DNA from: Myxococcaceae bacterium JPH2
GTDB lineage: Bacteria > Myxococcota > Myxococcia > Myxococcales > Myxococcaceae
Reading direction: 5' to 3'
Length of the DNA: 64,000 bases
Assembly: GCA_016458225.1 (NCBI GenBank)
Contig: JAEMGR010000003.1
Location: 558,001-622,000 of the forward strand
Shown here: positions 8,024-57,984 of the stretch, piece by piece
Layout of the letters: each line of letters starts with the position of its first letter
How positions within the stretch are numbered: the stretch's first letter is position 1
Position numbers and translations under genes: made by a program
Notes under the pieces: generated by a model
Told to the model about the DNA's origin: nothing
The model's input: the letters and a program-made list of their open reading frames with translations, nothing else
Database searches by the model: none

Positions 8024-11096
<3,073 letters not shown>

Positions 11097-11199
11097 GGCG
11101 GGCGGCCACGCACCCTAGCCGTCCATGCGCTCCCCTGCCTGTCCTTTCCGCGCTTCGTGTTCTCCGTCCGGCGACGCAAAGCCTAGGCTCGGCCACCGC

Positions 11200-11952: not shown

Positions 11953-11962
11953 GCGCGGGCGT

Positions 11963-12802: not shown

Positions 12803-12820
12803 GGGGGAGGACGGCGGGAC

Positions 12821-14956: not shown

Positions 14957-15098
14957 CGATCTTCCCTCGCCGGAATGGGTGTTAAGTGAGCGCTTATCAG
15001 CCGTTCGCGCGCAGCGTCAACGCGCGCGAACTCGCTCGCCTGCCTCATCCGCGACTCGGGGACCGCGACTGGCGCGGCGCGCCATGCACGCCCGCCGC

Positions 15099-15713: not shown

Positions 15714-15971
15714 GGTGACCTCCTTGTCGTTGTCGTCGCGACGCGCCGCCCCCCCGCTCCCGGTGGGTCTGCTCGCGTCGCCTCCCCCTCACGCTCGCCG
15801 GCACTCCCGCCGACCCGGCGCCCTCACGCCCTTCCGGATAATTACGACTTTGTCGAATAATTCAGTAGAGCCCGGAAGTCATGTATTCCGTTTGAAGAGT
15901 GGACGGAGGGGACGTCCGTCTCCGTGGGCACGGGTGGTCAGCGCGGCCACGGAGTCGCGGATGGGGTGGAA
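15714..15971. other. Intergenic region with promoter-like AT-rich patch
   Basis: It lies upstream of the DUF2378 gene and downstream of the aminotransferase. An AT-rich stretch at 15838-15865 contains an inverted repeat (CGAC-TTT-GTCG, 15845-15855) and could be a promoter or operator for DUF2378. A weaker hairpin (GGACG, CGTCC) near 15901-15917 could terminate the aminotransferase transcript. Confidence 0.35.
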
Positions 15972-17135
15972 CTAGGCGGCACCGAGCGCGGCCTGGGCGG
16001 CGGCGACGGCACTGCCGGGGGTGGCGTGGCGATGACCCGCCTGGAGCAAGGCGCGCTCGATGGCCCCCACCGTGGTGAGCACGTCCGAGGCGTTCACGCG
16101 GTTCATGTGGCCCACGCGGAAGTAGCGCGCCTTGAGTTCCGGGTGGAGTCCGCCGGCCACGACCACGCCCTGGCCGCGCACGCGGGCCACCAGCCCCGCG
16201 TCCACGCCCTCGGGATAGTAGACGGCGCTCAAGGTGTGAGCGGCCACGGCCTCCGAGGTGGGCAGCATGCGCAGCCCCAGGGCGCTCCACGCGGCGCGGA
16301 AGGCGAGCGCCATGCGACGGTGCCGAGCGAAGCGCGCCTCCATGCCCTCGGCCAGGATGAGGCCCAGGCTGACGTCGAGCGCGCAGACCAGCGAGGTCGG
16401 CGGCGTGGCGAAGTAGGCGTTGCGACCCGCCTCGTAGGCTTCCATGACGGGGAGCCACTCCGCCCAGTCCGCGTACACGCTGGCCACGGGCGCCTTGCGC
16501 GCGCGCCACGCCTCCAAAGCACGGGGGCTCGCCGTCAAGAGCGCGAGTCCCGGCGGAACACCGAGCGCCTTCTGGCTGGCGGTGAAGTACACGTCCGCGT
16601 CCCAGGCGTCCTGGTGGAAGGCCTCGCCCGCGGTGGCGCACACGCCATCCACCACGGACAGCACGCCACGCTGACGGGCCGCGCGCAGCAGCGGCTCCAC
16701 CGGCGCGAGCACCGCGGTGGACGTGTCCACGTGGGTCACCGACATCAGCTTGAAGCCGCCGCGCGCCAGCGCTGACTCCACGCGCGCGACATCCGGCGCC
16801 TCACCCGGCGGAGCGCGCACGTGGGTGACGCGGGCGCCGTGGCGCTCCAGGATGTGCGCCATCCGGTCGCTGAAGTAGCCGGTGTTCACCACCAGCGCGG
16901 CGTCGCCGGGCTCGACGAGGTTGGCCGCCGCCAGCTCCATGGCCAGCGTGCCGCTTCCCGCCACCACGAAGGGCTGCGCGCTCGGCGCCAGACACACCTC
17001 GCGGAGTCGGCGCAGCGCGCGGCCGAAGGTGGCCACGAAGGTTGGATCCAGGTGTCCGGGCACCGGCGCGCTCAGCGCCTGCAGCACCTCCGGCTCCACT
17101 TCCACGGGGCCGGGAATCATCAGCAGATCTCTCAC
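15972..17135 (-). CDS. PLP-dependent class V aminotransferase (alanine-glyoxylate type)
   Basis: 387 residues, the usual length for the serine/alanine-glyoxylate aminotransferase group. It opens with LLMIPGPVEVEPEVLQA, binds the cofactor phosphate through VVAGSGTLAMELA, has Asp163 in SVVDGV and the Schiff-base Lys189 in FTASQKALGVPPGLAL. The end FRVGHMNRVNASDVLTTVGAIERAL also matches the family. The substrate could be alanine, serine or a phosphonate such as 2-aminoethylphosphonate; the sequence does not decide. ATG 17135 follows 130 bases of spacer; it is probably monocistronic. Confidence 0.9.
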   Translation of the reverse strand: MRDLLMIPGPVEVEPEVLQALSAPVPGHLDPTFVATFGRALRRLREVCLAPSAQPFVVAGSGTLAMELAAANLVEPGDAALVVNTGYFSDRMAHILERHGARVTHVRAPPGEAPDVARVESALARGGFKLMSVTHVDTSTAVLAPVEPLLRAARQRGVLSVVDGVCATAGEAFHQDAWDADVYFTASQKALGVPPGLALLTASPRALEAWRARKAPVASVYADWAEWLPVMEAYEAGRNAYFATPPTSLVCALDVSLGLILAEGMEARFARHRRMALAFRAAWSALGLRMLPTSEAVAAHTLSAVYYPEGVDAGLVARVRGQGVVVAGGLHPELKARYFRVGHMNRVNASDVLTTVGAIERALLQAGHRHATPGSAVAAAQAALGAA

Positions 17136-17205
17136 GCCACCACTGTCGCCAACCCGGGCCGCGGCTGTCCACGTCCGCGCGCGACGGTGTGCTGGAAACG
17201 ACGAC

Positions 17206-17233
17206 GCCGGAGCGACCTGATGGTCACTCCGGC
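17206..17233 (-). terminator. Hairpin downstream of the metalloprotease gene
   Basis: A near-perfect 12-bp stem (GCCGGAG-GACC with GGTC-CTCCGGC, one mismatch) closes on a TGAT loop, starting 33 bases past the metalloprotease stop codon. There is no U-tract. The position fits a terminator that keeps protease transcripts out of the aminotransferase promoter region. Confidence 0.65.
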
Positions 17234-17265
17234 GCCGACTTCACATCAGGCTGCGTGAACGCTGA

Positions 17266-18159
17266 TTAGCGGTACGTCGCCATCAGGCTGTCCGCCCGCG
17301 TGACCTGGCCCGCGGTGAACGAGTTCATGCAGTTGTCGTCGGTGTAGTCCATGAAGTTGTAGATGGGGTCCACGCCGCCGCCGGAGCAGGTGTCGCGGCC
17401 GGCCGGGCAACCGAAGGCCGCGGAGGCCTCGGGCGCGGTGTCGCTCACGCTGTCACCCGTGCCAGTGCAGCCGCCCTGGAACGTGTGGTACAGGCCCACC
17501 CAGTGACCAACCTCGTGGGTCACCGTGTCGCCCTCGTTGTACGGGGCCGCGGTGCCGCCCGGCACGCTGGTGTACAGGAACGCCACGCCGTCCATGCTCG
17601 GCTGCGACGCGTAGCTGGAGGGGAAGGTCGCCCAACCCAGCAGGCCGCCACCCAGGTTCGCGGAGTAGAGGTTCAGCGCGTTCTTGCCGCCCTTGCGCAG
17701 CGCCGCCTTCATCTTCTTCTCAGCGGCGCCGCCCTGGCTCAGGTTGAACCAGGTGGAGTTGGTGGTGCGGTCCGTGCCCTGGAGCACGAACTTGAACGGG
17801 GTGGTGCTGTACGCCGCGTTCAGCACGTTCATCTGCGCGGTGATCTGGGAGTCGGGGATGTCGCCGTTGGCCAGGCCCGTGCCCTTGTTGATGACGTGGA
17901 AGTAGACCGGGATGGTCACCGAGCCCACCGCGCGCATCTCGTGCTTCTGGGTGCGCACGAACGCGTCGATGGCCTCGCGCTCATCGGCCGACGGCTCGAT
18001 GGTGGCGCAGCCACGGTGCGGGGTCTCCTGCTGCGTCGCGGCAGGCTGCTCCGCCGGCTTCTCCTCCGCGGGGGCCGCGTTGTTACAGCCCGCCAGCGCC
18101 GTCAGGGCACCGACAACCATCGCGAAACGACCACTGCGACGCGCAACGATACCAAACAT
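17266..18159 (-). CDS. M43 (pappalysin/ulilysin-like) zinc metalloprotease lipoprotein
   Basis: 297 residues. The signal peptide ends in a lipobox ALAG-Cys25, followed by a Pro/Glu/Ala linker. The catalytic region carries the metzincin zinc motif HEVGHWVGLYH (215-225) and a Met-turn YNFMDYTDD (Met270), with the Cys-rich insert CTGTGDSVSDTAPEASAAFGC between them, as in family M43. It would act outside the cell or at the outer membrane, cutting peptides or proteins, which suits a predatory bacterium. A hairpin terminator follows. The upstream spacer (18160-18277) is AT-rich and probably holds its own promoter, so it is likely separate from the mla operon. Confidence 0.92.
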   Translation of the reverse strand: MFGIVARRSGRFAMVVGALTALAGCNNAAPAEEKPAEQPAATQQETPHRGCATIEPSADEREAIDAFVRTQKHEMRAVGSVTIPVYFHVINKGTGLANGDIPDSQITAQMNVLNAAYSTTPFKFVLQGTDRTTNSTWFNLSQGGAAEKKMKAALRKGGKNALNLYSANLGGGLLGWATFPSSYASQPSMDGVAFLYTSVPGGTAAPYNEGDTVTHEVGHWVGLYHTFQGGCTGTGDSVSDTAPEASAAFGCPAGRDTCSGGGVDPIYNFMDYTDDNCMNSFTAGQVTRADSLMATYR

Positions 18160-18277
18160 TTCCCGACTCCTCGGAAAAGGGGGAGTACGGAAATACCCTT
18201 ACGTGAATTATCTGTCAACTCCACATTAGTTGGTCTTGTCGCGAATCGCGATTTAGGTCTTCCGACGCTCCAATGAT

Positions 18278-19510
18278 TTACGGATTTGGCGTGACTTCGG
18301 TCGGAGCCTGGGCCTCGCCCTCGGTCGTGGGGGAGGCCGGGCTTGCGCCCAGGGTGTTCGTGGGCGGAGTGGGGACGGGCTTCTCGCGGGGCTTGCCGAC
18401 CTGATCGAGGCTCTCGCGGTTGTCGAGCGAGAAGCGGACCAGCGCCCGGAGGATGCGGTTGCGCTTCACGTTGCCGAGCACCTCGCGGATGTCCTCGTAG
18501 ATGGTCGGGTCGGAGATGAGACCGCCGACGGTGCCCTCGCCCTTGGCCACCGTGGCGGTCACCTTGCGCAGGTCCGCGGCGGCCCCGCCCAGGTTGGCGA
18601 AGAGGTCGCGGGCGTCCCCGTAGATGAGCTGATGCACGGCGCCGTTGGGGCTCTTCTTCGCGTCCTCCAGCAGGCCCGCGAGCTGTCCGGCCGCCTCGCC
18701 CAGCTCGTGCAGCGCGGTGGTGCCCTCGCTGCCGTAGATGAGCTGATGCGCGGTGCCATCGCCGCGATGCACCTCGGCGAGGATGGCCTCCACGTGGCCC
18801 ACCGCGCCGTCCAGCCGCTCCGCCGCGCTCGCGGTGCGAGCCAGCAGGGCGCGCACTTCACGCCCCGAGGCCTTGTCGAAGATGAGCGCGTGCAGCGCGC
18901 CGTCGCCCTTCTCCACCTCTTCCAGCACGACGCGCAGGGAGGCCACGCTGCGCGCCAGGTCCCGGCCCATGTCGGGGTTCGAGTAGGCGGCGACCGCTTC
19001 CTTCAGCGACTCGCTGATGGCCACGGAGTTCTCCATCACCCGGCTCGCGCTGCGCATGAGCGAGGACAGGTCCCCGCCCTCGGTGGTCTGGAGCACGCCG
19101 CCGGGCTGCACCTGCGGCGATTGCGCCGTGCCCATGGAGATGTCCACGGCCTTGTCCCCCAGCACGCCCATGCTGGTGAGGCGCACCACCGAGTCTCCGC
19201 GCACGCGCTCGGCGTATCGCGAGGACACCTCCAGCTCCACCTCCAGCCGGGCGTCTCGGATGTCCGGCGCGAAGTTGACCGCCGTGACGTGGCCCACTTC
19301 CAGACCGCCGAGCCACACCGGCGACTTGTCGCTCAGGCCATCCACGTGGGTGAAGAAGGCGCGGTAGCGCACCTTGCTCTGGAAGAGGTGCGATTCCTGG
19401 CCGATGAAGAACACCACGACACCGGCCACCGCCAGACCCATGGCGACGAACAGCCCCGCGCGCAGGGCCAGCCGGCGTTCCTTCGTCGTGACGGAGGTGA
19501 AGAGACTCAT
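18278..19510 (-). CDS. mlaD: MlaD/MCE-family lipid-binding protein of an ABC transporter
   Basis: 410 residues. One N-terminal membrane helix (about 16-35, GLFVAMGLAVAGVVVFFIG) precedes an MCE domain at about 45-125 (YRAFFTHVDGLSDKSPVWLGGLEVGHVTAV). The rest is helical and unusually long, with about four copies of a motif of the form GDG-x-x-H-x-LIY-D/G spaced 40-60 residues apart. A Pro/Thr-rich tail ends it. MCE proteins pass phospholipids between inner and outer membranes. The ATG overlaps the ATPase gene by 4 bases. Confidence 0.92.
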   Translation of the reverse strand: MSLFTSVTTKERRLALRAGLFVAMGLAVAGVVVFFIGQESHLFQSKVRYRAFFTHVDGLSDKSPVWLGGLEVGHVTAVNFAPDIRDARLEVELEVSSRYAERVRGDSVVRLTSMGVLGDKAVDISMGTAQSPQVQPGGVLQTTEGGDLSSLMRSASRVMENSVAISESLKEAVAAYSNPDMGRDLARSVASLRVVLEEVEKGDGALHALIFDKASGREVRALLARTASAAERLDGAVGHVEAILAEVHRGDGTAHQLIYGSEGTTALHELGEAAGQLAGLLEDAKKSPNGAVHQLIYGDARDLFANLGGAAADLRKVTATVAKGEGTVGGLISDPTIYEDIREVLGNVKRNRILRALVRFSLDNRESLDQVGKPREKPVPTPPTNTLGASPASPTTEGEAQAPTEVTPNP

Positions 19511-20328
19511 GGCATTCCTCGGGCGCCCAGCTCCAGGCGGCGCGCGTCCAGGAAGGCCCGAACCTCCGGCACGGTGGAGCGCCGCATCTCATCCGGCGTC
19601 CCCACCGCCACGATGTGGCGATTGGCCAGCATGGCCATCCGGTCCCCCACCGAGAAGGCACTCACCATGTCGTGCGTGACGACGATGGAGGTGCAGCCCA
19701 GCCGGGCCTTCATGGAGTTGATCATCTCGTTGATGGTCTGCGTGGTGACGGGGTCCAGGCCCGTGGTGGGCTCGTCCCAGAGGATGACTTCCGGATCCGT
19801 GGCGATGGCCCGCGCCAACCCCACGCGCTTCTTCATGCCGCCAGAGAGGTCCGCCGGCATCATCGCCTCGATGCCCGGCAGGTCCACCAGCTCCAGCTTC
19901 TCCGCGACGCGGCGGCGCAGCTCCTCGCGGGACAGCTCCGGGAAGTGCTCACGCAGCGGATAGGCCACGTTCTCTCCCACGCTGAGCGAGTCGAACAGCG
20001 CCGCGCCCTGGAACACCATGGCCACGTGGCGGCGCACCTGGATGAACTGCTCCTCGGTGAAGTTCGTGACGTCGTGCCCCTCGAAGAGGATGCGGCCCGC
20101 GTCCGGGCGCATGAGCCCGATGAGGCACTTGAGCAGCACGCTCTTGCCCACGCCCGAGCCGCCCATCACCACCATCGTCTCCCCGGCGCGCACGTCCAGG
20201 TTCACGTCGTCGTAGATGTGCTTGGCGCCAAACGCCTTCACCAGGTTCTCGAAGCGGATGAGCCCCTCGCCCGGCGTGGGCCGGCGGAACTCGAAGGTGG
20301 AGGGCGCGTAGCGGCGGGCAGGAGGCAT
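19507..20328 (-). CDS. mlaF: MlaF-like ABC transporter ATPase
   Basis: 273 residues. Walker A is GGSGVGKSVLLK, the Q-loop lies in AMVFQGAALFDSLSVGENVAYPL, the signature is LSGGMKKRVGLARAIA, Walker B is EVILWDEPTTGLDP, and the switch His sits in IVVTHDM. The GMKKR variant of the signature is typical of MlaF/Ttg2A-type ATPases. It energises lipid transport at the inner membrane with the MlaE permease encoded 6 bases upstream. An N-terminal extension of about 20 residues precedes the domain. Confidence 0.95.
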   Translation of the reverse strand: MPPARRYAPSTFEFRRPTPGEGLIRFENLVKAFGAKHIYDDVNLDVRAGETMVVMGGSGVGKSVLLKCLIGLMRPDAGRILFEGHDVTNFTEEQFIQVRRHVAMVFQGAALFDSLSVGENVAYPLREHFPELSREELRRRVAEKLELVDLPGIEAMMPADLSGGMKKRVGLARAIATDPEVILWDEPTTGLDPVTTQTINEMINSMKARLGCTSIVVTHDMVSAFSVGDRMAMLANRHIVAVGTPDEMRRSTVPEVRAFLDARRLELGARGMP

Positions 20329-20334
20329 GGCGCG

Positions 20335-21141
20335 TCAGAAGAAGAGCGTCAGCTTGGTGATGAAGAAGTCCGCCAGACACACCGCGACGGAGGTGATGGC
20401 CACCGTCTGCGTGGTGGCGCCGCCCACGCCTTCCGTTCCGCCCTGCACCGTCAGCCCCTTGAAGCACCCCACCAGCCCGATGATGAGGCCGAACACCGCG
20501 CCCTTCACGACGCCGGAGATGAAGTCGTTCATCAGCACCGAGTCCAGCGCGCCCTGGAAGAAGAGCTCCAGGGTGATGCCGTACTGCAGCCGCACCACCA
20601 GCCCGCCCGCGCACAGGCCCACCACGTCCGCGAACACCGTGAGCACGGGCATCACCAGCAGGCACGCTTGCACGCGCGGCACCACCAGCTTGCGCAGCGG
20701 ATCCGCGCCCAAGGCGCGAATGGCGTCCACCTGCTCCGTCACCGACATGGCGCCCAGCTCCGCCGCCATGCCGGAGCCGATGCGCGCGCCCACCGTGAGC
20801 GCGGTCAGCACCGGCGCCAGTTCGCGGAACAAGGTGAGCACGACCACGCGCCCCACCGTGTACTGCACGCCGAAGCGCGCCAGGAAGTAACCAAACTGCA
20901 GCGAGATGACGAGGCCCGCGAACGTCGCGGTGAGCAGCGCGATGGGCAGCGAGCGAACGCCCAGCGACTCCGTATGGTAGACGAGCGCGCTCCAGCTGTA
21001 CGGCGGGCGCACGGCGCGGCTGAACACCTGCCCCGTCATGCGCGTCAGCTCGCCCAAGGACTCCAGGCTCGCCCGCGCGCGCATGCCCAGCGGCAACCGC
21101 GACGCGAGCGAAACTGCGCCAGCCTCGACCTCCGAGTTCAT
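20335..21141 (-). CDS. mlaE: MlaE-type permease
   Basis: 268 residues with five to six membrane helices and the MlaE family signature ALLTATFAGLVISLQFGYFL plus EQVDAIRALGADPLRKLVVPRVQACLLVMPVL. The segment GARIGSGMAAELGAMSVTEQVDAIRALG is diagnostic of MlaE/YrbE. It forms the membrane channel of the lipid transporter. The start ATG overlaps the stop of the upstream lipoprotein gene by 4 bases, so all four genes form one operon. Confidence 0.95.
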   Translation of the reverse strand: MNSEVEAGAVSLASRLPLGMRARASLESLGELTRMTGQVFSRAVRPPYSWSALVYHTESLGVRSLPIALLTATFAGLVISLQFGYFLARFGVQYTVGRVVVLTLFRELAPVLTALTVGARIGSGMAAELGAMSVTEQVDAIRALGADPLRKLVVPRVQACLLVMPVLTVFADVVGLCAGGLVVRLQYGITLELFFQGALDSVLMNDFISGVVKGAVFGLIIGLVGCFKGLTVQGGTEGVGGATTQTVAITSVAVCLADFFITKLTLFF

Positions 21142-47661: not shown

Positions 47662-48699
47662 TCACGGTATCAACACGAGCTTGCCCACCGTGGTGCCGGA
47701 CTCCAACGCGCGGTGCGCATCCGCCACCTGGTCGAACGGGAACGTCGTCACCCGAGGCGCCACCAGCCGCCCCGCCTCTACCCACCCGAGCAGGCGAGTC
47801 ATGGCCTCCTGGAGGATGCTTCGCGACTCGAACAGGTACGAGAGATTGAAGGCGAGCACGCTCGTGTTGTCGTTCGTCAGCGTGAGCGGATTGAACCGCG
47901 GCGTGCGCAACCAATCCCAAGCGAGCCTGGCGAAGTTCGGTCGCCCGCCCTGGCGCGGCAGCATCGAGTGGAAGCCGTAGATGATGAGCTTCCCCGGCGA
48001 CGCGAGGTGCCGGTAGCTCTCGCGCAGCGTGGTGGGGCCGTTCGCGTCCAGCACCACGTCATATCCGCGCGGCGCGGCGTGCTGGGCCACCACCCACAAG
48101 TCCTCGCGGCTCTTGTCGATGACGACCTCCGCCCCCAGCTCGCGCGCGACCGCCACCTTGTGCGGACCACCCACCACTCCGACCATCCGGCATCCCGCGA
48201 TGCGGCCAATCTGGAGCAGCGCGCCGCCCACGCCGCCCGCCGCCGAGTGCACCAACACATTCGCGCCCGGCTTCGGATGCGCCAGCTCCCACAGCGCGTA
48301 GTACGCGGTGAGGAACACCGCCGGGAAGCCCGCCGCCTGCGCCATCGTCCAGCCCGCCGGCAAGGCGAACACCTGATGTCTGGGGATGCGCACGTGTGTG
48401 GCATAGCCATCGAAGCGCGTCACGCCGAACACGCGCATGCCCGGTGACACATCCGTCACATCCGGGCCCACCGCCGCCACCGTCCCGGCCACCTCGAAGC
48501 CTGGGGTGATGGGCCACCCCACGTATTCCTTGGCAGAGGAATACAAACCCATGCGGACGACACAGTCCGCGTAGTTCACGCCCACCGCCTCGGTCGCGAT
48601 GACCACCTCGCCCGGGCCCGGTTCGGGCACGGACATGGACTCAATCAACAGTCGCTCGTGACCGCCTGCTTTGTGAATGACGACCTTTCGCGCGCGCAT
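47662..48699 (-). CDS. Medium-chain zinc-type alcohol dehydrogenase / quinone oxidoreductase
   Basis: 345 residues. MDR-superfamily, quinone-oxidoreductase type. The N-terminal GroES-like part (VGVNYADCVVRMGLYSSAKEYVGWPITPGFEVAGTVAAVG) carries the qor-like VNYxD...PGFE signature, and the nucleotide-binding loop is VLVHSAAGGVGGALLQIGRIAG. It lacks the Cys set of structural zinc, so it is a zinc-free NADPH-dependent reductase. An insert around 250-300 (RTPRFNPLTLTNDNTSVLAFNLSYLFESR) is typical of the synaptic vesicle VAT-1-like subgroup. It shares an operon orientation with the upstream ligase and is divergent from the lipase. Confidence 0.92.
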   Translation of the reverse strand: MRARKVVIHKAGGHERLLIESMSVPEPGPGEVVIATEAVGVNYADCVVRMGLYSSAKEYVGWPITPGFEVAGTVAAVGPDVTDVSPGMRVFGVTRFDGYATHVRIPRHQVFALPAGWTMAQAAGFPAVFLTAYYALWELAHPKPGANVLVHSAAGGVGGALLQIGRIAGCRMVGVVGGPHKVAVARELGAEVVIDKSREDLWVVAQHAAPRGYDVVLDANGPTTLRESYRHLASPGKLIIYGFHSMLPRQGGRPNFARLAWDWLRTPRFNPLTLTNDNTSVLAFNLSYLFESRSILQEAMTRLLGWVEAGRLVAPRVTTFPFDQVADAHRALESGTTVGKLVLIP

Positions 48700-48786
48700 A
48701 GGCTCGCTCTACACTACGCAACGCGCTCGATGAACACTCCAACGGGTTCCGCGCGCGATTCCCCCACCACATCAAGGAGCAACACC

Positions 48787-49803
48787 ATGCGATTGCGACA
48801 CTCGCTCACCCTCGCTGGCGCCCTGCTGCTCGGCCCTCTGACGGGCTGCGGCACGGAGACGGAAGCCCCTCTCTCCTCTCAGGAGACAGGTGATGTGATT
48901 GCGACCCAGGCCGCGGTCACCACCACGGGCTTCACCTCGCACTTCCGCCAGTGGTTGTCAGACAATGGCTATGAGCCCACCTACAACCTCATCCGAGACG
49001 ACCTCTCGGGCGGCAGCTACGGCGGCAAGTCCAGCGCCAGCGATACCGTGGTGAATCAGCCGGTGATTTTCATTCACGGCAACTCGGACAAGGCGGTGGG
49101 CACCGGCACGGCAGGACAGACGGGCTGGAATGCCTCGCTCGATTACTTCCTGGCCAATGGCTACAAGACGAGCGAGCTGTATGCGACGACCTGGGGCCCG
49201 GCCAACGCCGCCATGTCCGCATACCAATACCATTCCAAGACAAATGTGATGAAGGTCCGCAAGTTCATCGAGGCGGTGAAGGCATACACCGGCGCCGCCA
49301 AGGTGGACATCGTCACGCACTCCATGGGCGTGACGCTGACGCGCAAGGCCATCCTCGGTGGCTGGGCGCATGACGCGGCGGACGGCGGCGATTACTACGT
49401 GGGCGCGCCGCTCACGTCCTCGGTGGATACGTTCGTCGGCATCGCGGGCGCGAACCTCGGGCTCACGTCCTGCTACCAGACGGGCCCCGGCACTCCGACG
49501 TGCGGCTCCACCAATGGCTTGTACCCGGGCTACCTCTACTTCGGCTTCGTGACCGGGCGCTCCGAGTACCTCAATGACTTGCTCGCCAGCTCGGGCTACG
49601 AGGGCACGTACCGATACAGCATCTACTCCACGGCCGATGAAATCATCGGCTACGGCGGCATCGTCTACGGCAGCTACACCTCACGCATCCCCGGGCAGAC
49701 CGGTGAGAAGGTCTACACCGCGTATCCGTATGGCCACTTCAACAGCAAGGACCTCACCGGGAGCGTCCAGTTGAGCATGGTCAAGAACCACACCATCCCG
49801 TAG
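48787..49803 (+). CDS. Lipase class 2 (EstA-like) lipoprotein
   Basis: 338 residues from ATG 48787, which follows AAGGAG; the open frame upstream overlaps the dehydrogenase start. Lipobox LLGPLTG-Cys21. The alpha/beta-hydrolase core has the oxyanion region PVIFIHGNSDKAVG and nucleophile Ser180 in VDIVTHSMGVTLTRKAI, with the catalytic His probably in YPYGHFNSKDL. It resembles the Lipase_2 group of secreted bacterial lipases such as Bacillus EstA but is longer. It should act at the cell surface or outside, hydrolysing esters. A hairpin terminator follows. Confidence 0.9.
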   Translation: MRLRHSLTLAGALLLGPLTGCGTETEAPLSSQETGDVIATQAAVTTTGFTSHFRQWLSDNGYEPTYNLIRDDLSGGSYGGKSSASDTVVNQPVIFIHGNSDKAVGTGTAGQTGWNASLDYFLANGYKTSELYATTWGPANAAMSAYQYHSKTNVMKVRKFIEAVKAYTGAAKVDIVTHSMGVTLTRKAILGGWAHDAADGGDYYVGAPLTSSVDTFVGIAGANLGLTSCYQTGPGTPTCGSTNGLYPGYLYFGFVTGRSEYLNDLLASSGYEGTYRYSIYSTADEIIGYGGIVYGSYTSRIPGQTGEKVYTAYPYGHFNSKDLTGSVQLSMVKNHTIP

Positions 49804-49858: not shown

Positions 49859-50968
49859 CTACTCCTGCTTCTCGGGCGTCCCCTGCCGAGCCGGCTCGGT
49901 GGGCGCGGACTCCGGCGCCACCGCTCCAACACTCGGCGCAGGGACCGTCTGAAGGAACGCCGTCAGCGCGGCATTGAAGGGACCCGGGCAGTCGAGTTGG
50001 AGGATGTGCCCACACCCCGGGAACCCCACCAGCTTCGAGCCGGCGATGCGCGAGTGGCCGTACTCGAAGATGTCTCGCGAGAAGCCACCGTGCATGAACG
50101 GGTTGGGAATCAACCGGTCGTTCTCACCGAAGAGGATGAGCGTGGGCGCGGTGATGTGCTGGAGGTTGTCGCGCACGAAGTCATCGTGGGCGAGCCCCGA
50201 CACCGAGCGGACGTTCGCATAGGCATACGCGTCGAACTCGGGCGCCTTGGAGAGGCGCACGCGCTCCTCGATGAGCCACTCCAGCTCCGGACGCCACTGC
50301 TGGAAGTTGGCCTGCCGCACGCTGCCCCAGATGGCGTACTCCGGCGCGCTCTTGATGAACTCCGTGCTCATGACGCGCGCGAACCACGCCTTCTCCTTCG
50401 GCGTGAACTTCTCGAAGCCCGCGGGCGACACCAGCACCACCGCCGCCGGCTCGCTCGGGTAGCGAATGGCATACGACAGCACCGTCTGCCCGCCCATGGA
50501 GTGGCCCACCAGGATGGGGTGCTCGATGCCCAGTCCCAGGGTCAGCTCGCGCACCGCGTCCGCCATGGCCTCCATGGTGTACGGGAACGTGCCGGGCTTG
50601 TCTGACTTGCCGAAGCCCGGCAGGTCCACCGCGATGACGCGGTAGCCCGCCTGACTCAGCACGTCGATCTGCGCGCGCCAGAACTTCAGGTAGCTGCCCA
50701 GTCCGTGGACGAGCACCACGGTGCGCGCGCCGGGCGCGGCGGGCATCTCCACGTAGGCCATCTCTGGCACGCGGGTCAGGCCATACGTGGCCGCCGTCTT
50801 CGGCAGGGCCACGCGCTTCAGGGGCCAGGGCGTCTTCGTCTCCGGCGACGAGTAGTCCAGGTCCTGGAACGACAAGGCGGGCGCGCTCGCATAGGAGCGG
50901 ACGCAGCCGGATGCAGAGGCGAGCCCCGCCGCGAGCAGCAGGGCCTTGAGGGCGCGGGAGGTGCTCAT
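49859..50968 (-). CDS. Alpha/beta hydrolase lipoprotein
   Basis: 369 residues from ATG 50968. Lipobox GLASASG-Cys22, then an alpha/beta-hydrolase domain: oxyanion HG in VVLVHGLGSYLKFW, the LPGFGKSDKP loop, nucleophile Ser157 in ILVGHSMGGQTVLSYAIRYP, acid in LILFGENDRLIPN, and His in FPGCGHILQLDCPGPF. The C-terminal tail is Pro/Glu-rich. It is the last gene of the TetR operon side, 2 bases after the outer-membrane protein gene (TGA-CC-ATG), which suggests the two work together, for example cleaving an ester before or after it crosses the outer membrane. Confidence 0.9.
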   Translation of the reverse strand: MSTSRALKALLLAAGLASASGCVRSYASAPALSFQDLDYSSPETKTPWPLKRVALPKTAATYGLTRVPEMAYVEMPAAPGARTVVLVHGLGSYLKFWRAQIDVLSQAGYRVIAVDLPGFGKSDKPGTFPYTMEAMADAVRELTLGLGIEHPILVGHSMGGQTVLSYAIRYPSEPAAVVLVSPAGFEKFTPKEKAWFARVMSTEFIKSAPEYAIWGSVRQANFQQWRPELEWLIEERVRLSKAPEFDAYAYANVRSVSGLAHDDFVRDNLQHITAPTLILFGENDRLIPNPFMHGGFSRDIFEYGHSRIAGSKLVGFPGCGHILQLDCPGPFNAALTAFLQTVPAPSVGAVAPESAPTEPARQGTPEKQE

Positions 50969-50970
50969 GG

Positions 50971-52638
50971 TCAGAACGCGTACCAGGTGAAGGTGGTGAA
51001 GGCGGCGAAGGGGTTCGTCTTCACCGTGGTGGAGCCGTCGTAGAAGCTGCCGCGGAACAGGTAGCCCGCGTGCAGGCCCACCGTCATGAGGTAGCGAATG
51101 GTGTAGCGGAGCTCCGCGTTCACCTCGGCGCCAATGAAGCGCCCGCGCCGCACCGCCGGGTCCCAGCGCGGCGGCGTGGCGCCCGAGTTGGCCAGGCCCG
51201 TGGCCAGCTTGAGGTTGAGCTTGTTGGGAATCATGTCCCACGCGGCGCTCGCGATGCCGGTGCGCAGGCCATAGCCCTGGTTGGAGATGTCCGTCACCGC
51301 GCCCGTGTAGTTGTTCACGGTGCTGGTGAAGGGGAACAGCAGGAGCATCTTGTGGTCGAACCACACCGAGCCCGGCAGGCCGTACTGGTTCAGCGTGAAG
51401 GCGCCGGTGTAACGGTCGTCATCCAGGTTGCTGTCGCCGGTGGTGAACATGCCCTCCAGCGACACCACGTCCGCGGGGCCACGGCCCCACTGGTAGAGCA
51501 GCTCCAAGTTGGCCGACAGGCCGGAGATATCCACCTTCTTGTTGAAGGTGGTGTCCTCGCGGTCGCTCTTGTAGCTGCCGGCGTTGTACATGACGAAGCC
51601 CGAGGCTCCGAAGCGGCCGGTGCGGAAGTCGATGTTGTGGTGGAAGTTGGCGCCCAGCCAGAAGACGCTGCCGGTGGGCCGCTCGATGTTGAAGCGCGGC
51701 GTGCCCACGAACGGGTTGAGGCCCGTGGACGAGGGGCCGCTCTTCACGATGCCTTCATAGGCATACGCGTCGCCCTTGGTGTCGTCGCGCAGGAACCAGA
51801 AGGACAGGCCCACGTTCGTTCCGGGCTGCACCGGGTACGCATAGTCCGCGGTGAGCAGGTAGATGAACTTGAGGCGCGGGTCGTCCTTGGCCGCCTTGTC
51901 CGTCTGCGCGCTGCCCAGCGGCAGCAGGCTCAGCTTGGACAGGCCCTTGTAGTTGCTGAACAGCGTCAGGCCCGTGGCGTCGCTGCCCAGGAACGCCAGC
52001 TTGTAGCCCGTGCGGATGATGTCGTTGAGGGGCGTGCGCGTCGGGTCGAAGATGGAGTCGTAGACGGGCTGCGTGCCGATGAGCAGCGTCAGCCGCGCCG
52101 GGTTGCGCGTGGGGTACAGCGCGACGTTGACGTTCTTCGTCTGGAGGTTGACCTGGTCGGCGTTGAAGCCGCCACCCTCGTTCTGCTGCGAGGCGTTGGC
52201 GGCGCGGCCCCAGAGGTAGTCCACCTCGAACTGCGCGCGGAAGGACGCCAGTCCATCCACGAAGGACGGGCTGTACTCGATGACAGGAATCCAGCGCTGC
52301 TCGACGTAGTACGCCGAGCGCCCCTGCTCCACGCGCACCGCGCTGCCGGACAGCGAGCCGATGGGCCCCAGCGACACGCCCTTGAGGCCCGAGGGGTCAC
52401 CGATGCTGTTCGTCACCGACAGCCGGGTGAAGAAGTAGTTGATGAGGACGAACTCGCGCGGCTTCGCGTCCTCCTCGCGGTCATTCGCATCCAACCAGTC
52501 GCCGTAATACAGACCCGGCACCGTGGAGGTCTGCGCCACGGCGGGCCCTGACAGCCCCACCAGTCCGAGCGCCGCCCAGGCCGCGCACCGGCGCAATCCC
52601 TTGCGTGCTTCGCCCAACCACCCTCCCGACATACGCAC
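50971..52638 (-). CDS. Outer-membrane beta-barrel protein, probable channel
   Basis: 555 residues. Signal peptide (AAWAALGLVGLSGPAVAQ), then many amphipathic strands with aromatic edges (FVLINYFFTRLSVTNSIG, RFGASGFVMYNAGSYKSDRED, LMTVGLHAGYLFRGSFYDG) and a C-terminal Phe (FTTFTWYAF), as needed for BAM insertion. Length suggests 14-18 strands. I do not recognise a named family; it is unlike classical porins and may be a lipid or hydrocarbon channel, by its neighbourhood. It follows a hairpin after the lipoprotein gene, so it may have reduced or separate expression. Confidence 0.8.
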   Translation of the reverse strand: MRMSGGWLGEARKGLRRCAAWAALGLVGLSGPAVAQTSTVPGLYYGDWLDANDREEDAKPREFVLINYFFTRLSVTNSIGDPSGLKGVSLGPIGSLSGSAVRVEQGRSAYYVEQRWIPVIEYSPSFVDGLASFRAQFEVDYLWGRAANASQQNEGGGFNADQVNLQTKNVNVALYPTRNPARLTLLIGTQPVYDSIFDPTRTPLNDIIRTGYKLAFLGSDATGLTLFSNYKGLSKLSLLPLGSAQTDKAAKDDPRLKFIYLLTADYAYPVQPGTNVGLSFWFLRDDTKGDAYAYEGIVKSGPSSTGLNPFVGTPRFNIERPTGSVFWLGANFHHNIDFRTGRFGASGFVMYNAGSYKSDREDTTFNKKVDISGLSANLELLYQWGRGPADVVSLEGMFTTGDSNLDDDRYTGAFTLNQYGLPGSVWFDHKMLLLFPFTSTVNNYTGAVTDISNQGYGLRTGIASAAWDMIPNKLNLKLATGLANSGATPPRWDPAVRRGRFIGAEVNAELRYTIRYLMTVGLHAGYLFRGSFYDGSTTVKTNPFAAFTTFTWYAF

Positions 52639-52746: not shown

Positions 52747-53364
52747 CTAGTTGATGACGTAGACCTGCACGGCGTTGCCGGCGAAGGCCTTGCCCGAGGT
52801 GCTCACGGACTTCGCGCCCACCGCGCCGTCCGCGCAGTGCCAGCCGGTGGCCTTGGTCTCGAAGTACAGCTCCATGGAGAGCTTCTTCGCGTCGTCGGTG
52901 AAGCGGGCGCGGCCCTCCTGCTTGAAGCTGCCGTAGTCCACCAGGACCTCGAAACAGCTCCCGTCCGTGGCGATGTTGGTGATGGTCACGGCCTTGGAGT
53001 CGAACACCAGCGCGTTCTGCGCCGCGTCGTGGTCACAGGTGCTGCCCGGCTGACCCACGCCCGTGGAGTTGCGGATGGTGCCCGGCGTGCTCGTCACGTG
53101 GAAGTTGCCGCCGCCCACGCCAATGGAGACCTTCTGGAAACACTGGGACGCCGAGCCCCAGTTGATGTCCTCATCCAGCGACAGGGGATGGCTGGGGATG
53201 TTGGCGCCCTCCATCAGGAGCGTCTTGCCCTCCAGGAACGCCAGGATGTTGGCCTGCGTGTCCAGCTTCGGCTTGGTGTCCACCGGCGTCTCGGTCTTGT
53301 CATCCCCACAGCCGGCGAGTCCCAGCGTGCACACCATCATCGCGGACCAGAACGTCTTCTTCAT
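52747..53364 (-). CDS. Lipoprotein of unknown function
   Basis: 205 residues from ATG 53364 (ribosome site GAGGAG at good spacing). Lipobox VCTLGLAG-Cys19. The mature part has paired cysteines (SASQCFQKV, GSTCDHDAAQ, DGSCFEVL, GWHCADGAV) suggesting two disulfides, and beta-rich sequence. No family recognised. The N-terminal LDTQANILAFLEGKTLLMEGANIPSHPLSLDEDINWG is distinctive. It lies between the MFS gene and the outer-membrane protein gene in the TetR operon, so it may be the periplasmic or outer-membrane partner of the transport route. Confidence 0.82.
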   Translation of the reverse strand: MKKTFWSAMMVCTLGLAGCGDDKTETPVDTKPKLDTQANILAFLEGKTLLMEGANIPSHPLSLDEDINWGSASQCFQKVSIGVGGGNFHVTSTPGTIRNSTGVGQPGSTCDHDAAQNALVFDSKAVTITNIATDGSCFEVLVDYGSFKQEGRARFTDDAKKLSMELYFETKATGWHCADGAVGAKSVSTSGKAFAGNAVQVYVIN

Positions 53365-53423
53365 GTGAGTGCTCCTCGTAGCTTCCGGCGACAGCGCCGG
53401 GGGGTGACAACACAGACACAAAC

Positions 53424-54683
53424 TCAGTGCATGGCCGGCGCGGGGCTCGACTCCACCGCACTTCCGGGCGAGTCCTTCGGGCGCAGCAGGTACACGCCGA
53501 GCATCAACACGCCGCCGCCCGCCGCCGTGATGGCGATGACCTCCGACAGCGACAGGTTCGCCTTCTCATGCAGCGCGGCCATGGCCGTGGGCACGCCGGC
53601 CGCGAGGAAGGCACCCACGTGGTAGACCAGACCCACGCAGCGCCCGCGCACGTGGGCCGGGAAGATGGACGTGAGCAGCATGGGCGTCACGCCGGTGATG
53701 CCCGCGCCCAGCACGCCGCCCGCCAGCGCGCCCAGCCACAGCGCGGACGGCACCATGCCGACGTAGAGCGGGATGAAGGGCAGCGAGCCCAGCACGGGGA
53801 TGGCCAGCGCCAGTCCCGCGCCGCGCCGTGCCGCCAGGCTGCCGCAGAAGATGGCGCCCACCAGCATCCCGATGTTGAACAGGTACAGCATCGGCGCGAG
53901 CTGCTGCTGCGTCATCCCCAACTGCGTCTGGAGCAGCGTGGGGTAGAGGCTGGTGTAGCCGTAGTAGGAGACGAACCCGAAGCCGAGCAGCACCGAGGCC
54001 CAGACCAGTCGGACCCCCAGGCCCTGGCGCACCAGCGCCATCAGTGAGGGCTGCGGCTGCTTCGACTCAGCGGCCTTCTTCCAGTCCGGGCTCTCCGGCA
54101 CCCAGAAGCGGATGGGCAGCACCAGCAGCGCGGGCGCGGCGGCGAGCAGGAACAGCGCGCGCCAACCCCACACCGGCACCACCACGGCCGCGGTCGCGGT
54201 GGCCAGCAGGTAACCCACCGCCCAGCTCCCCTGGAGGATGCCGGACGCGATGCCTCGGCTGCGCTCCGGCCAGTTCTCCATGGCCAGCGTGGCGCCGCTC
54301 GTCCACTCCGCGCCCATGCCAAAGCCAAACAGCGTGCGCAGCACCAGCACCATGGTGAACGAGTGCGAGAACGCCACCGCGCCATCACACACGGCGAACC
54401 ACACCACCGAAATCATCAGCGGCAGCTTGCGACCCCACCGGTCCGAGGCCCATCCCGCCACCACGCCACCCACCAGACGCAGCAGCAGCGTGAGGGTGAT
54501 GGAGAGCGACGTCACCGTCATGGTCGCGCCGAACTCCTTGGCGATGGCCGGCATGACGAGCAGGAAGATGGTGAAGTCGAACGCGTCGAGAATCCAACCG
54601 ACCCACGCCGCCAGGAAGGACATCCACTGGCCCTTCGTGGGCTCCTTCCACCAGGGCACCTGCGCCGGGCTCTGCGTCGTCAT
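53424..54683 (-). CDS. MFS transporter of the carboxylate/sialate type
   Basis: 419 residues, 12 helices. Motif A GWASDRWGRKLPLM between helices 2 and 3, and the opening DAFDFTIFLLVMPAIAKEFG, which in MFS proteins such as NanT, JEN1 and ShiA binds anionic substrate via the DxFD sequence. The central loop is short. It is probably a symporter of an organic acid, with the acyl-CoA ligase encoded immediately upstream (4-base overlap) acting on the imported acid. The exact substrate is unknown. Confidence 0.9.
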   Translation of the reverse strand: MTTQSPAQVPWWKEPTKGQWMSFLAAWVGWILDAFDFTIFLLVMPAIAKEFGATMTVTSLSITLTLLLRLVGGVVAGWASDRWGRKLPLMISVVWFAVCDGAVAFSHSFTMVLVLRTLFGFGMGAEWTSGATLAMENWPERSRGIASGILQGSWAVGYLLATATAAVVVPVWGWRALFLLAAAPALLVLPIRFWVPESPDWKKAAESKQPQPSLMALVRQGLGVRLVWASVLLGFGFVSYYGYTSLYPTLLQTQLGMTQQQLAPMLYLFNIGMLVGAIFCGSLAARRGAGLALAIPVLGSLPFIPLYVGMVPSALWLGALAGGVLGAGITGVTPMLLTSIFPAHVRGRCVGLVYHVGAFLAAGVPTAMAALHEKANLSLSEVIAITAAGGGVLMLGVYLLRPKDSPGSAVESSPAPAMH

Positions 54684-56245
54684 GGGGACTCCTGGTTCGC
54701 GCGAGCAGCCGCGGCGATGGCCGCGTCGCGCAGCTCGCGCTTGAGAATCTTTCCGGCCGGGGACACCGGCAGCCGCTCCACCAACTCCACCTGCTTGGGC
54801 ACCTTGAAGCGGGCCACGCGGCCCCGCAGGTGCTCCAGCAGCGCCTCGGCCGAGGCGGCCTGCCCGGGCTTGAGCACCACGAAGGCGCGCCCCACCTCAC
54901 CCCACTTCGCGTCGGGCACGCCGACGACGGCGCACTGCTGCACGGCCGAGTGCTCGTAGAGCGCGGACTCCAGCTCCAGCGGGTACACGTTCTCGCCGCC
55001 GGAGATGAACATGTCCTTCTTGCGGCCCGCGATGGTGAAGAACCCATCCGCGTCCTGGCTCGCCAGGTCACCGGTGCGCAGCCAGCCATCCGCGCCAATG
55101 GCCTCGCGCGTGGCGGCCTCGTCCTCGAAGTAGCCCGAGCACATCGAGGGCCCCTTCAGCCACAGCTCGCCCACCTCGCCCACGGGCACCGTCTGTCCGT
55201 GGTCATCCACCAGCTTCGCGTCGACGAAGTAGTTGGGCCGGCCGATGGAGCCCGCCTTGGACACCGCGAACTCGGGGCCCATGCTGAAGATTCCGGGCCC
55301 GAACTCGGTCATCCCGAAGCCCTGCTTGAAGGGCACCGCGTGCACCGCTTGCCACGCCTGGAGCAGCGGCACCGGCAGCGGCGCGCCACCGCTGGTCATG
55401 AAGCGCACCGAGGAGAAGTCCGTGCTCCGCCAGCGCTGCGAGTCGAGCAGCTGCTGATATTGCGTGGGCACCGCGAAGAAGAACGTCACCTTCTCGCGGG
55501 CGATGAGCGCGAGCAGCTCCTCGGGGTCCCATCGCCGCATGATGACGACGGTGCCGCCCACGGTGAGCAGCGGCACCGAGTACACGAGCAGCCCGCCCGT
55601 GTGGAACATGGGCGTGTGCGTGAGGGTGACGTCGCCCGGGCGAAGCTCATGCACCAGCGTGTTGAGCGTGTTCCACGCCACCATGCGGTAGGACACCTGC
55701 GCGCCCTTGGAGCGCCCCGTGGTGCCGCCCGTGAACAGCAGACAGACGATGTCCTCCGCGTCCACGGTGGGGTTGGACACGGGCGTGGCCGAGGTATGCG
55801 CCAGCACCGTCGCGTAGGCGTCCGCGCCCGGCAGGCCCACGGACTCCAGTGCCACCAGCCGCGGCCCACCGACGACGTGCTCGCGCACGTGCGCCACGGC
55901 GTCCCGGAAGTCATCGCCGAAGAGCAGCACGCTCGGGCGGACGGAGCGCACCAGGTCCGCCAGCTCGGATGCGTGCAGGCGCCAGTTGTACGGCACGAAG
56001 ATGGCGCCCAGCTTCCCGCAGGCGAAGAAGGCGTCCAGGTACTCCACGCCGTTGTGCGCCACCAGGCCCACGCGGTCGCCGCGCTTCACGCCGGCCACGT
56101 CGCGCAGCCACGCGGCCAAGGCCTCACAGCGCGCGTTCAGGGCGCGGTAGGTGAAGCGGCCCGCGTCACCTCGGGCCACATCCACCACGGCGAGCTGCTC
56201 CGGCCAGTAGAGCGCGCCCCGTCCCATCCAGTCTCCGATGAACAT
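54680..56245 (-). CDS. Acyl-CoA synthetase / AMP-dependent ligase
   Basis: 521 residues. ATP loop LLFTGGTTGRSKGAQVSY, motif HTGGLLVYSVPL, GFGMTEFGPGI, DGWLRTGDLASQDADGFFTIAGRKKDMFISGGENVYPLELES and catalytic Lys in SPAGKILKRELRD are all present. About 50% similar by eye to the ligase at 46078, so the two are paralogues. It would activate a carboxylic acid imported by the MFS protein. ATG 56245 stands 39 bases after the KAS III-like gene stop and overlaps the MFS start by 4 bases. Confidence 0.94.
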   Translation of the reverse strand: MFIGDWMGRGALYWPEQLAVVDVARGDAGRFTYRALNARCEALAAWLRDVAGVKRGDRVGLVAHNGVEYLDAFFACGKLGAIFVPYNWRLHASELADLVRSVRPSVLLFGDDFRDAVAHVREHVVGGPRLVALESVGLPGADAYATVLAHTSATPVSNPTVDAEDIVCLLFTGGTTGRSKGAQVSYRMVAWNTLNTLVHELRPGDVTLTHTPMFHTGGLLVYSVPLLTVGGTVVIMRRWDPEELLALIAREKVTFFFAVPTQYQQLLDSQRWRSTDFSSVRFMTSGGAPLPVPLLQAWQAVHAVPFKQGFGMTEFGPGIFSMGPEFAVSKAGSIGRPNYFVDAKLVDDHGQTVPVGEVGELWLKGPSMCSGYFEDEAATREAIGADGWLRTGDLASQDADGFFTIAGRKKDMFISGGENVYPLELESALYEHSAVQQCAVVGVPDAKWGEVGRAFVVLKPGQAASAEALLEHLRGRVARFKVPKQVELVERLPVSPAGKILKRELRDAAIAAAARANQESP

Positions 56246-56284
56246 GCGCGGCGTCTCCTTCCGGGTGGGGGTGGTGGGTGGGAC

Positions 56285-57280
56285 TCAGGCCGTCCAGCGG
56301 TACAGCGCGGAGGCCATGGCGAGTCCGCCGCCGCTGGCACAGAACGCCACCAGGTCGCCGCGCCGGACCTTGCCCTGCAGCACGGCGTCATCGAGCGTCA
56401 TGGGGATGCAGGCCGAGCCCGTGTAGCCCCACTTGTCCATCGTGTAGTGGGCCTTGGCCATGGGCTGCTGCATCGCCTTCATGGTGGCCTCGATGGTGCG
56501 CAGGTTGAGCTGCGTGAAGACGAACAGCTTCACGTCATCCAGCGACTGGTCCGCGCGCTTGAGGAGCTGATCCAACAGCATGGGCCAGCGCTCGGTGTTG
56601 AAGGTCGCGGGGAACTTGCGGACGAACTGCACCGCGGGCTTGCCGCCCGTGAGCGCCAGCGACTCCGCGGTGGCCGGGCGGTGCGTGCCGCCCGTGTAGA
56701 TGCCGAGCGCGTCGTGGTACTCGCCGTTGGCCAGGAGCTTGGCGCCCAGGAAGCCGGGCGTGGTGCCCGCGCCCAGCACCACCGCGCCCGCGCCATCCGC
56801 GAACAGGGTGCAGGTCTTCTTGTCCTTCCAGTTGATGTAGCGGCTCATCCCGTAGGCGCCCACCACGAGGATGCGGCGGTAGCTGTCGTCCGCGGCAATC
56901 GTCTTGGAGCCCACGTCGAGCGCCGTCACCCAACCGGCGCACGCCGCGTTGATGTCATACGTGCCCGCGTTCGCCGCGCCCAGCTTGGCCTGCACCACGG
57001 ACGCGGTGCCGGGGCTCAGGTAGTCCGGCGTGTCCGTGGAGACGATGATGAGGTCCAGGTCGCTCGCGGTGACACCCGCGCGCTCCATCGCCTGGCGCGC
57101 GGCGGCCACGCACAGGTCGCTGGTCGCCTGGTCGTCCGCCATGTGGCGGCGCTCCTTGATGCCCACGTTCTGCTGGAGCCACTCGTCCACGGACTCGCCG
57201 AGAATCTTCTCGACGTCCGCGTTGGTGATGAGCTTCTCGGGGACGTAGCGACCCGTGGAGAGGATCTGCGCGTATCGCAT
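56285..57280 (-). CDS. KAS III (FabH)-like protein with altered active site
   Basis: 331 residues with thiolase fold of the FabH type. The nucleophile Cys114 is intact in YDINAACAGWVTAL. At the place of the catalytic His of FabH (VPHQANLRI) the sequence is FVFTQLNLRT (Thr256), and the catalytic Asn (HGNTSAAS) is replaced by WGYTGSAC (Tyr286). GAGAVVLGAGTT and the final ASGGGLAMASALYRW match the family. A standard decarboxylating condensation is therefore unlikely; acyl transfer or non-decarboxylating thioester chemistry is more plausible. It lies 8 bases after the TetR gene in the same operon. Confidence 0.9.
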   Translation of the reverse strand: MRYAQILSTGRYVPEKLITNADVEKILGESVDEWLQQNVGIKERRHMADDQATSDLCVAAARQAMERAGVTASDLDLIIVSTDTPDYLSPGTASVVQAKLGAANAGTYDINAACAGWVTALDVGSKTIAADDSYRRILVVGAYGMSRYINWKDKKTCTLFADGAGAVVLGAGTTPGFLGAKLLANGEYHDALGIYTGGTHRPATAESLALTGGKPAVQFVRKFPATFNTERWPMLLDQLLKRADQSLDDVKLFVFTQLNLRTIEATMKAMQQPMAKAHYTMDKWGYTGSACIPMTLDDAVLQGKVRRGDLVAFCASGGGLAMASALYRWTA

Positions 57281-57288
57281 GAGGGTGT

Positions 57289-57984
57289 TCAGCTCCGGGC
57301 GCCGCGCGCCGGACGGCGGGCGGCGGGACGCAAGGTGTTCTTCAACGGCTGCTTCTTCTTCGGCGGAGACTTCTCTTCACGGGCCTGGAGGCCGTGGCGG
57401 ATGAGGGACATGGCCGTGTCGAGCACGCGCTCGAGGCCCGGGTCCTCCTCCCACATCACCCAGCGCATCCCCAGGAAGTCGCCAATGCCCATCAGGCAGT
57501 ACGCCAGGGCCTCGGCGTCCATCTTCCGCACTTCGCCGTCGTCCATGGCGCGCGTGAGGCCGCGCACGTAGCCCTTGGCGAAGCGGTCGTAGTAGCGGCG
57601 GTAGCAGGCCTCGTCCACGAACTCGGCCTGGCGCACCACGCGGTAGAGGTTCGGGTGCTGGCGCGCGAACTGGAAGAACGCGCGCAATCCCTCGCGCTCG
57701 GTGTCCATGCGGTTGGCGCAGGCCGCGGTGGACTCGGCGATGAGCCGCCGCAGCCGCGCGCCCAGCTCGTCCACCACCTCGACGAAGATGGACTGCTTGT
57801 CCGGGAAGTACACGTAGAACGTCCCGAGCGCGACCCCACCCTTGCGCGTGATGTCCGCGATGGACGCGCGCTCGTAGCCCTTCTCACCAAAGACCGACTC
57901 AGCGGCCTTGAGCAGCTTCTGCCGCGTCCGCTGACCTCGCGGCGTGACGGGAACCCGCTCCTGGGAAGTTGAAGGCCGATTCAT
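57289..57984 (-). CDS. TetR-family transcriptional regulator
   Basis: 231 residues. HTH at about 14-62: RQKLLKAAESVFGEKGYERASIADITRKGGVALGTFYVYFPDKQSIFVEVV. The ligand domain is large and helical, with a basic Lys/Pro/Arg-rich tail (SPPKKKQPLKNTLRP). It is the first gene of the operon reading toward the KAS III-like, ligase and MFS genes, so it most likely represses its own operon and is released by an acyl ligand. Perfect palindromes sit just upstream (57992-58025). Confidence 0.93.
   Translation of the reverse strand: MNRPSTSQERVPVTPRGQRTRQKLLKAAESVFGEKGYERASIADITRKGGVALGTFYVYFPDKQSIFVEVVDELGARLRRLIAESTAACANRMDTEREGLRAFFQFARQHPNLYRVVRQAEFVDEACYRRYYDRFAKGYVRGLTRAMDDGEVRKMDAEALAYCLMGIGDFLGMRWVMWEEDPGLERVLDTAMSLIRHGLQAREEKSPPKKKQPLKNTLRPAARRPARGARS

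Follow-up and report, generated by a model that had tools for sequence, protein, structure and literature searches.

The window analysed here is a stretch of 64,000 nucleotides from a Myxococcaceae genome which carries, on its minus strand, an operon that includes a gene for a protein of the ketoacyl-ACP synthase III (KAS III) fold, with a convergent lipase gene beyond its far end. The features are as follows.

57289..57984, minus strand: TetR-family regulator (Pfam TetR_N), 8 bases upstream of the KAS III gene and its most constant neighbour in Myxococcota
56285..57280, minus strand: KAS III-fold protein by alignment, domains and model, with Cys114, Thr256 (FabH H244), Tyr286 (FabH N274), Asn228 (FabH A216) and Ser316 (FabH F304)
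54680..56245, minus strand: acyl-CoA ligase (AMP-binding); among solved structures it is closest to a feruloyl-CoA synthetase and to fatty-acyl-CoA ligases
53424..54683, minus strand: MFS transporter, which some relatives have in the operon and others lack
52747..53421, minus strand: predicted lipoprotein, no Pfam family
50971..52638, minus strand: outer-membrane-type protein, rich in strands and with a signal peptide, for which neither a Pfam family nor a PDB relative was found
49859..50980, minus strand: alpha/beta hydrolase whose start resembles that of a lipoprotein, with weak similarity to PcaD and to meta-cleavage hydrolases
48658..49803, plus strand: secreted class 2 lipase, convergent with the operon; the PDB search gave strong matches only to the PHB depolymerase PhaZ7 (E 1.9e-20)

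An earlier note on this DNA had listed the ligase, the MFS transporter and the TetR regulator as the surroundings of the KAS III gene and all three assignments were correct. Orthologues of the outer-membrane-type protein are 72-96% identical to it, and its structure model (pLDDT 43) was left out of the analysis. The KAS III-like open reading frame starts with ATG and encodes 331 amino acids. Because its GC content by codon position is 0.63/0.48/0.96 and its dN values against six relatives lie 3- to 30-fold below dS, we regard it as a real gene under purifying selection, and a pseudogene or sequencing slip was ruled out by the alignment, codon GC and dN/dS. A 913-aa open reading frame on the plus strand (54830-57571) runs antisense to the ligase, the KAS III gene and part of the TetR gene and is probably a shadow ORF, a by-product of the high third-position GC.

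Pfam places the 331-aa protein in the KAS III superfamily with matches to ACP_syn_III and ACP_syn_III_C (E 1.7e-25 and 3.9e-25). An AlphaFold2 model built from 36 sequences reached a mean pLDDT of 94.3, and the superposition on E. coli FabH (1ebl) that the earlier note had proposed gave the full KAS III fold with its thiolase-type double arrangement (VIA Z 47.8, 1.5 A across 317 residues). The top structural matches of the model are FabHs, the enzymes with which fatty-acid synthesis begins, and a search for PDB relatives likewise returned ordinary FabHs as best matches and no solved structure with the Thr/Tyr (T/Y) residues. Sequence identity to E. coli FabH and to the FabH-like paralogue of the same genome is 32-38%, while the closest named genome, Citreicoccus inhibens, encodes a protein 99% identical. 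Further KAS III paralogues in the window's own genome keep the His, and the most FabH-like of them (C30:84694-85683) has the complete Cys/His/Asn (C/H/N) set.

In the alignment to E. coli FabH the residues C114, T256 and Y286 stand at the positions of C112, H244 and N274. That the Cys is kept and the His and Asn are exchanged for Thr and Tyr had been claimed for this single protein, and it holds for 47 of 47 members of the clade to which it belongs, whereas all 40 ordinary KAS III homologues aligned carry C/H/N. The split is far beyond chance, with no intermediate found among the 47 and the 40. The window gene is thus one copy of a clade of KAS III-fold enzymes with a Cys-Thr-Tyr site, and our literature searches for a KAS III with this residue set returned no described case.

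On a tree of 63 sequences the T/Y proteins make up one side of a single branch with support of 100/99, so that the phylogeny called for earlier returned a single clade, with conserved gene neighbours. Its members were found in Myxococcaceae, Chloroflexota and Pseudomonadota. The main clade was sampled with 42 sequences of 58-99% identity, some of them near copies, from Myxococcaceae genera, two Chloroflexota and two Pseudomonadota, and a deeper sister branch with five sequences of 42-44% identity from Chloroflexota and one other Myxococcota. An exact DNA-pattern search for the WGYTG-AC motif, part of whose matches were read, gave matches in 70 of 195 Myxococcota, 5 of 350 Chloroflexota and 5 of 229 genomes of the class that holds the Competibacteraceae genome. 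Of the four new matches in that class, three lie in genes for sister-branch proteins; at the locus of the fourth (L173) no KAS III gene was identified. One record labelled Comamonas sp. KCTC 72670 (L031, BNCN01000009) carries a Myxococcus-type operon with a KAS III protein 88% identical to ours and is probably a mislabelled or contaminated assembly.

In FabH, Cys112 accepts the acyl group, the amides of Cys112 and Gly306 form the oxyanion hole and His244 and Asn274 hold the malonyl-derived enolate (PMC10054515, PMC4807248). With this pair lost, decarboxylative condensation should stop while acyl loading would be possible, and by analogy with FabH we consider decarboxylative Claisen condensation by the T/Y protein unlikely. 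The earlier argument against normal Claisen condensation is well supported, and the exception it allowed for, another His and Asn filling the site, was looked for across the clade alignment, where no column holds an invariant His. H278 was considered as a substitute catalytic His and rejected, since it sits at FabH V266 and is Asn in three members (L005, L027, L029). The new invariant Asn228 could help but makes no His-Asn pair.

The exchange at the catalytic positions is accompanied by others. Among the positions with one residue throughout the T/Y clade and others in ordinary KAS III are D83 (FabH T81), Y143 (D140), M145 (L142), N228 (A216), W232, G288, C291, which is position +5 after Tyr286, and S316 (F304). 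Among the FabH contacts to CoA and ACP, R36 is replaced by N/S, R151 by K/D, K214 by T/E, G209 by R/T and F213 by A/P. Counted over the six contacts W32, R36, R151, K214, N247 and R249, the main clade keeps W32, N247 and R249 with N, K and T at the others, and in the sister clade all six are gone. As A216N, F304S, T81D and L142M are fixed and R36, R151, K214, G209 and F213 are lost, the acceptor tunnel has been rebuilt, with Cys114, the GGG-type loop and D162 kept throughout. The residue that closes the acyl pocket in FabH, F87, is replaced by S/T in the T/Y clade, as it is in long-chain FabHs, a point established for mtFabH. Near the GGG loop the alignment with thiolases leaves a doubt of one or two residues, and we claim neither Ser316 nor Cys314 as the counterpart of thiolase Cys378.

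That the new residues are all strictly fixed implies a site under selection, and this, together with the complete KAS III fold and the new invariant Asn at FabH Ala216, would be expected of an enzyme that still condenses, using a new catalytic set in which Thr256, Tyr286, Asn228 and Ser316 stabilise an enolate or a non-malonyl nucleophile to give a beta-keto product. We think such an enzyme unlikely, however, given the lost CoA/ACP contacts, a score of 261 bits where the TIGR00747 fabH cut-off is 292 (the broader subfamily model PRK09352 is passed, 290 against 249) and a Myxococcaceae operon without ACP, ketoreductase, dehydratase or PKS genes.

The neighbourhoods of relatives give a view of the likely physiological setting. 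Most Myxococcaceae with enough flanking sequence share the order TetR, KAS III, acyl-CoA ligase, (MFS), lipoprotein, outer-membrane protein and alpha/beta hydrolase, followed by a convergent class 2 lipase and ADH. Corallococcus keeps TetR-KAS III-ligase with a different hydrolase and a 666-aa protein without a Pfam family. This last protein (L018:3902-5902, plus strand), of no known family, takes the place of the outer-membrane and lipoprotein genes and adjoins the KAS III-ligase pair. Divergent myxobacterial genera have TetR-KAS III with an outer-membrane protein, a hydrolase or an MFS transporter, the ligase not being close by, and a PF10503 esterase occurs at two of these loci. The two Chloroflexota loci of the main clade contain ligases, two kinds of hydrolase and branched-chain-type ABC transporter genes. 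In the Chloroflexota of the sister branch there is a strongly conserved run of SDR, KAS III, CoA-transferase, SCP2-type thiolase, OB-fold protein, PcaD-like hydrolase and an ABC importer, again of the branched-chain type. One such catabolic-looking operon, from SDR to ABC importer and with a T/Y KAS III, lies at 9185-20879 of an annotated Chloroflexota plasmid (L147, CP069395.1), and similar runs are present in the genome contigs L148-L151.

Because import, CoA activation and hydrolysis recur in two branches with non-homologous activating enzymes, the context of the T/Y KAS III gene looks catabolic. Against this reading, no operon partners were visible at L033, L036 and L037. Nor was an operon of this kind seen beside the Gammaproteobacteria-type sister members. 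Catabolism of PHB as the specific pathway is suggested by the PhaZ7-like esterase and by the PF10503 esterases beside KAS III genes in L085 and L136, but it was not adopted since class 2 lipases and PF10503 each cover a broad range, a feruloyl-CoA synthetase is the nearest relative of the ligase and a search of the window genome for PhaC found none.

The sensing role that the earlier note had offered as one option fares poorly here, as the rebuilt tunnel and the catabolic neighbours favour a new enzyme activity over simple loss or sensing. A non-catalytic sensor of acyl groups or acyl-CoA working with the adjacent regulator would account for TetR being the neighbour that varies least in Myxococcota, in many cases overlapping the KAS III gene or lying within about 12 bases of it, yet TetR genes are usually located beside the genes they control in any case. 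Moreover, no member has lost Cys114 or the GGG-type loop, and in the Chloroflexota branch no TetR adjoins the gene, a large BTAD/TPR-type regulator lying upstream instead. All of this makes a sensor very unlikely.

The same note had also offered acyl transfer or thioester exchange, either of which may apply, and had placed the protein's action on a compound made by the ligase. Action on the ligase product fits most Myxococcaceae, where the ligase is the next gene, but the ligase is not obligatory, several divergent myxobacterial loci having none close by and the Chloroflexota a CoA-transferase instead. A related reading, possible though somewhat doubtful, is an acyltransferase or transacylase (or a hydrolase) in which Cys114 would move the acyl group of the ligase's CoA product to an alcohol, amine, thiol or water with no C-C chemistry, as in CerJ, ChlB3 and non-elongating KS domains. 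Acyltransferases of the KAS III fold do exist (PMC9573744), and as FabH relies on Cys112 for acyl loading and on His244/Asn274 for decarboxylation (PMC4807248), transacylation should survive the loss of the His/Asn pair. The adjoining ligase of most Myxococcaceae agrees with this, the loci without a ligase less so; CerJ and ChlB3, however, require a His-Asp pair for activation of the Cys where the T/Y clade has no invariant His, and the catabolic neighbours offer no obvious acceptor.

Taking these lines together, a non-decarboxylative acyl-enzyme acting in catabolism is likely. With Cys114 at a helix N-terminus and the Cys114/Gly318 amide oxyanion hole kept, the acyl-enzyme would still form, and malonyl decarboxylation would be lost with the His/Asn enolate pocket, judging from the homologue FabH. 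Less certainly, the pathway may import an acid or ester product and activate it with CoA, after which Cys114 would attack the beta-carbonyl, the C-C bond would break, the leaving enolate would be protonated by Tyr286 in surroundings formed by Thr256, Asn228 and Ser316, and the acyl group would pass to CoA or another acceptor. The net result would be thiolase-direction chemistry with a Tyr acid replacing the thiolase His. As an overall explanation, a Cys-Thr-Tyr acyl-enzyme carrying out thiolase-direction cleavage in catabolism is possible rather than probable, and the C-C cleavage direction taken by itself is tentative; our best guess puts cleavage with Tyr286 as proton donor slightly ahead of plain acyl transfer, which is almost as likely. 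Speaking against cleavage, a thiolase is already present in the Chloroflexota operon and seven in the window genome, and only a special substrate would leave room for a thiolytic role. Speaking against a CoA-bound substrate, the FabH CoA contacts are partly lost in the main clade and entirely in the sister clade, unless binding has been rebuilt.

The NCBI model for beta-ketoacyl-ACP synthase 3 accepts the T/Y clade, and an annotated Chloroflexota relative is named ketoacyl-ACP synthase III, although the residues for that reaction are missing. The lineage is probably a differently working enzyme for which the database label of fatty-acid synthase is wrong. It lends itself to a clean natural experiment, separating the part of the KAS III site that decarboxylates from the part that loads the acyl group, and presents a biosynthetic fold rebuilt for apparent catabolism in at least three phyla. 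A bolder proposal, which we regard as doubtful, is a new catalytic class of the thiolase superfamily with a Cys nucleophile, a Tyr general acid and no His. Its members, now under the wrong label of fatty-acid synthase, would cleave C-C bonds or move acyl groups on a CoA-activated acid, in breakdown pathways that have so far gone undescribed in myxobacteria and Chloroflexota.

Compared with known systems, the protein shares with FabH the fold, the Cys nucleophile and the GGG oxyanion loop but differs in having Thr/Tyr for His244/Asn274, in the changes at R36, R151, K214, G209, F213 and A216 and in its catabolic-looking context. The Cys-His-Asn triad is absent from all 47 clade members and the full FabH set of CoA/ACP contacts from both the main and the sister clade; on its sequence the protein should not be filed as FabH, failing the triad test. 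CerJ and ChlB3 likewise combine a KAS III fold and a Cys nucleophile with the absence of Claisen condensation, but theirs is a Cys-His-Asp triad (PMC9573744), whereas the T/Y clade has no conserved His. PqsC of PqsBC is a FabH relative without the catalytic Asn, which unlike the T/Y protein retains the His (a Cys-His dyad with Val for Asn) and pairs with PqsB. Non-elongating KS domains (KS0) of trans-AT polyketide synthases keep the Cys, lose the decarboxylation His and carry out acyl transfer only. In Cys retention and His loss they resemble our protein, but they are KAS I/II-type domains within a PKS where the T/Y protein stands alone as a KAS III and has many other fixed changes besides. 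OleA has Cys-His-Asn and accompanying OleBCD genes; here the His and Asn are absent, no OleC/OleD-like pair was identified and the ligase best fits ordinary acyl-CoA ligases. Nor does the protein carry the thiolase set of Cys, NEAF Asn, GHP His and CxG Cys. A profile alignment of ordinary KAS III with the thiolases of the window genome puts H244 (T256) at the NEAF Asn and N274 (Y286) at the GHP His.

The steroid retro-aldolases Ltp2 and Sal resemble the T/Y protein in their Tyr acid/base residues, remodelled thiolase-superfamily site and catabolic C-C cleavage, but they are far in sequence, belong to an SCP2-thiolase subgroup without a nucleophilic Cys and bind a DUF35 partner. No DUF35 gene was found in the Myxococcaceae operon, and the OB-fold gene of the Chloroflexota operon lies beside that operon's own thiolase. 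At the position of the Ltp2/Sal motif Tyr (YDHF/YDCY) our protein has T256. Thiolase-fold C-C cleavage with Tyr as acid/base is described for Tyr294/Tyr344 of TcLtp2 and Tyr302/Cys304 of CtSal, TcLtp2 being a thiolase-fold retro-aldolase in which Tyr344 serves as the acid (PMC12329534). Tyr344 lies 50 residues past the motif Tyr, the same spacing as that from the HDCF His to the GHP His in the Chloroflexota thiolase, and because of this match TcLtp2 Tyr344 probably occupies the place of Y286, the FabH N274 position.
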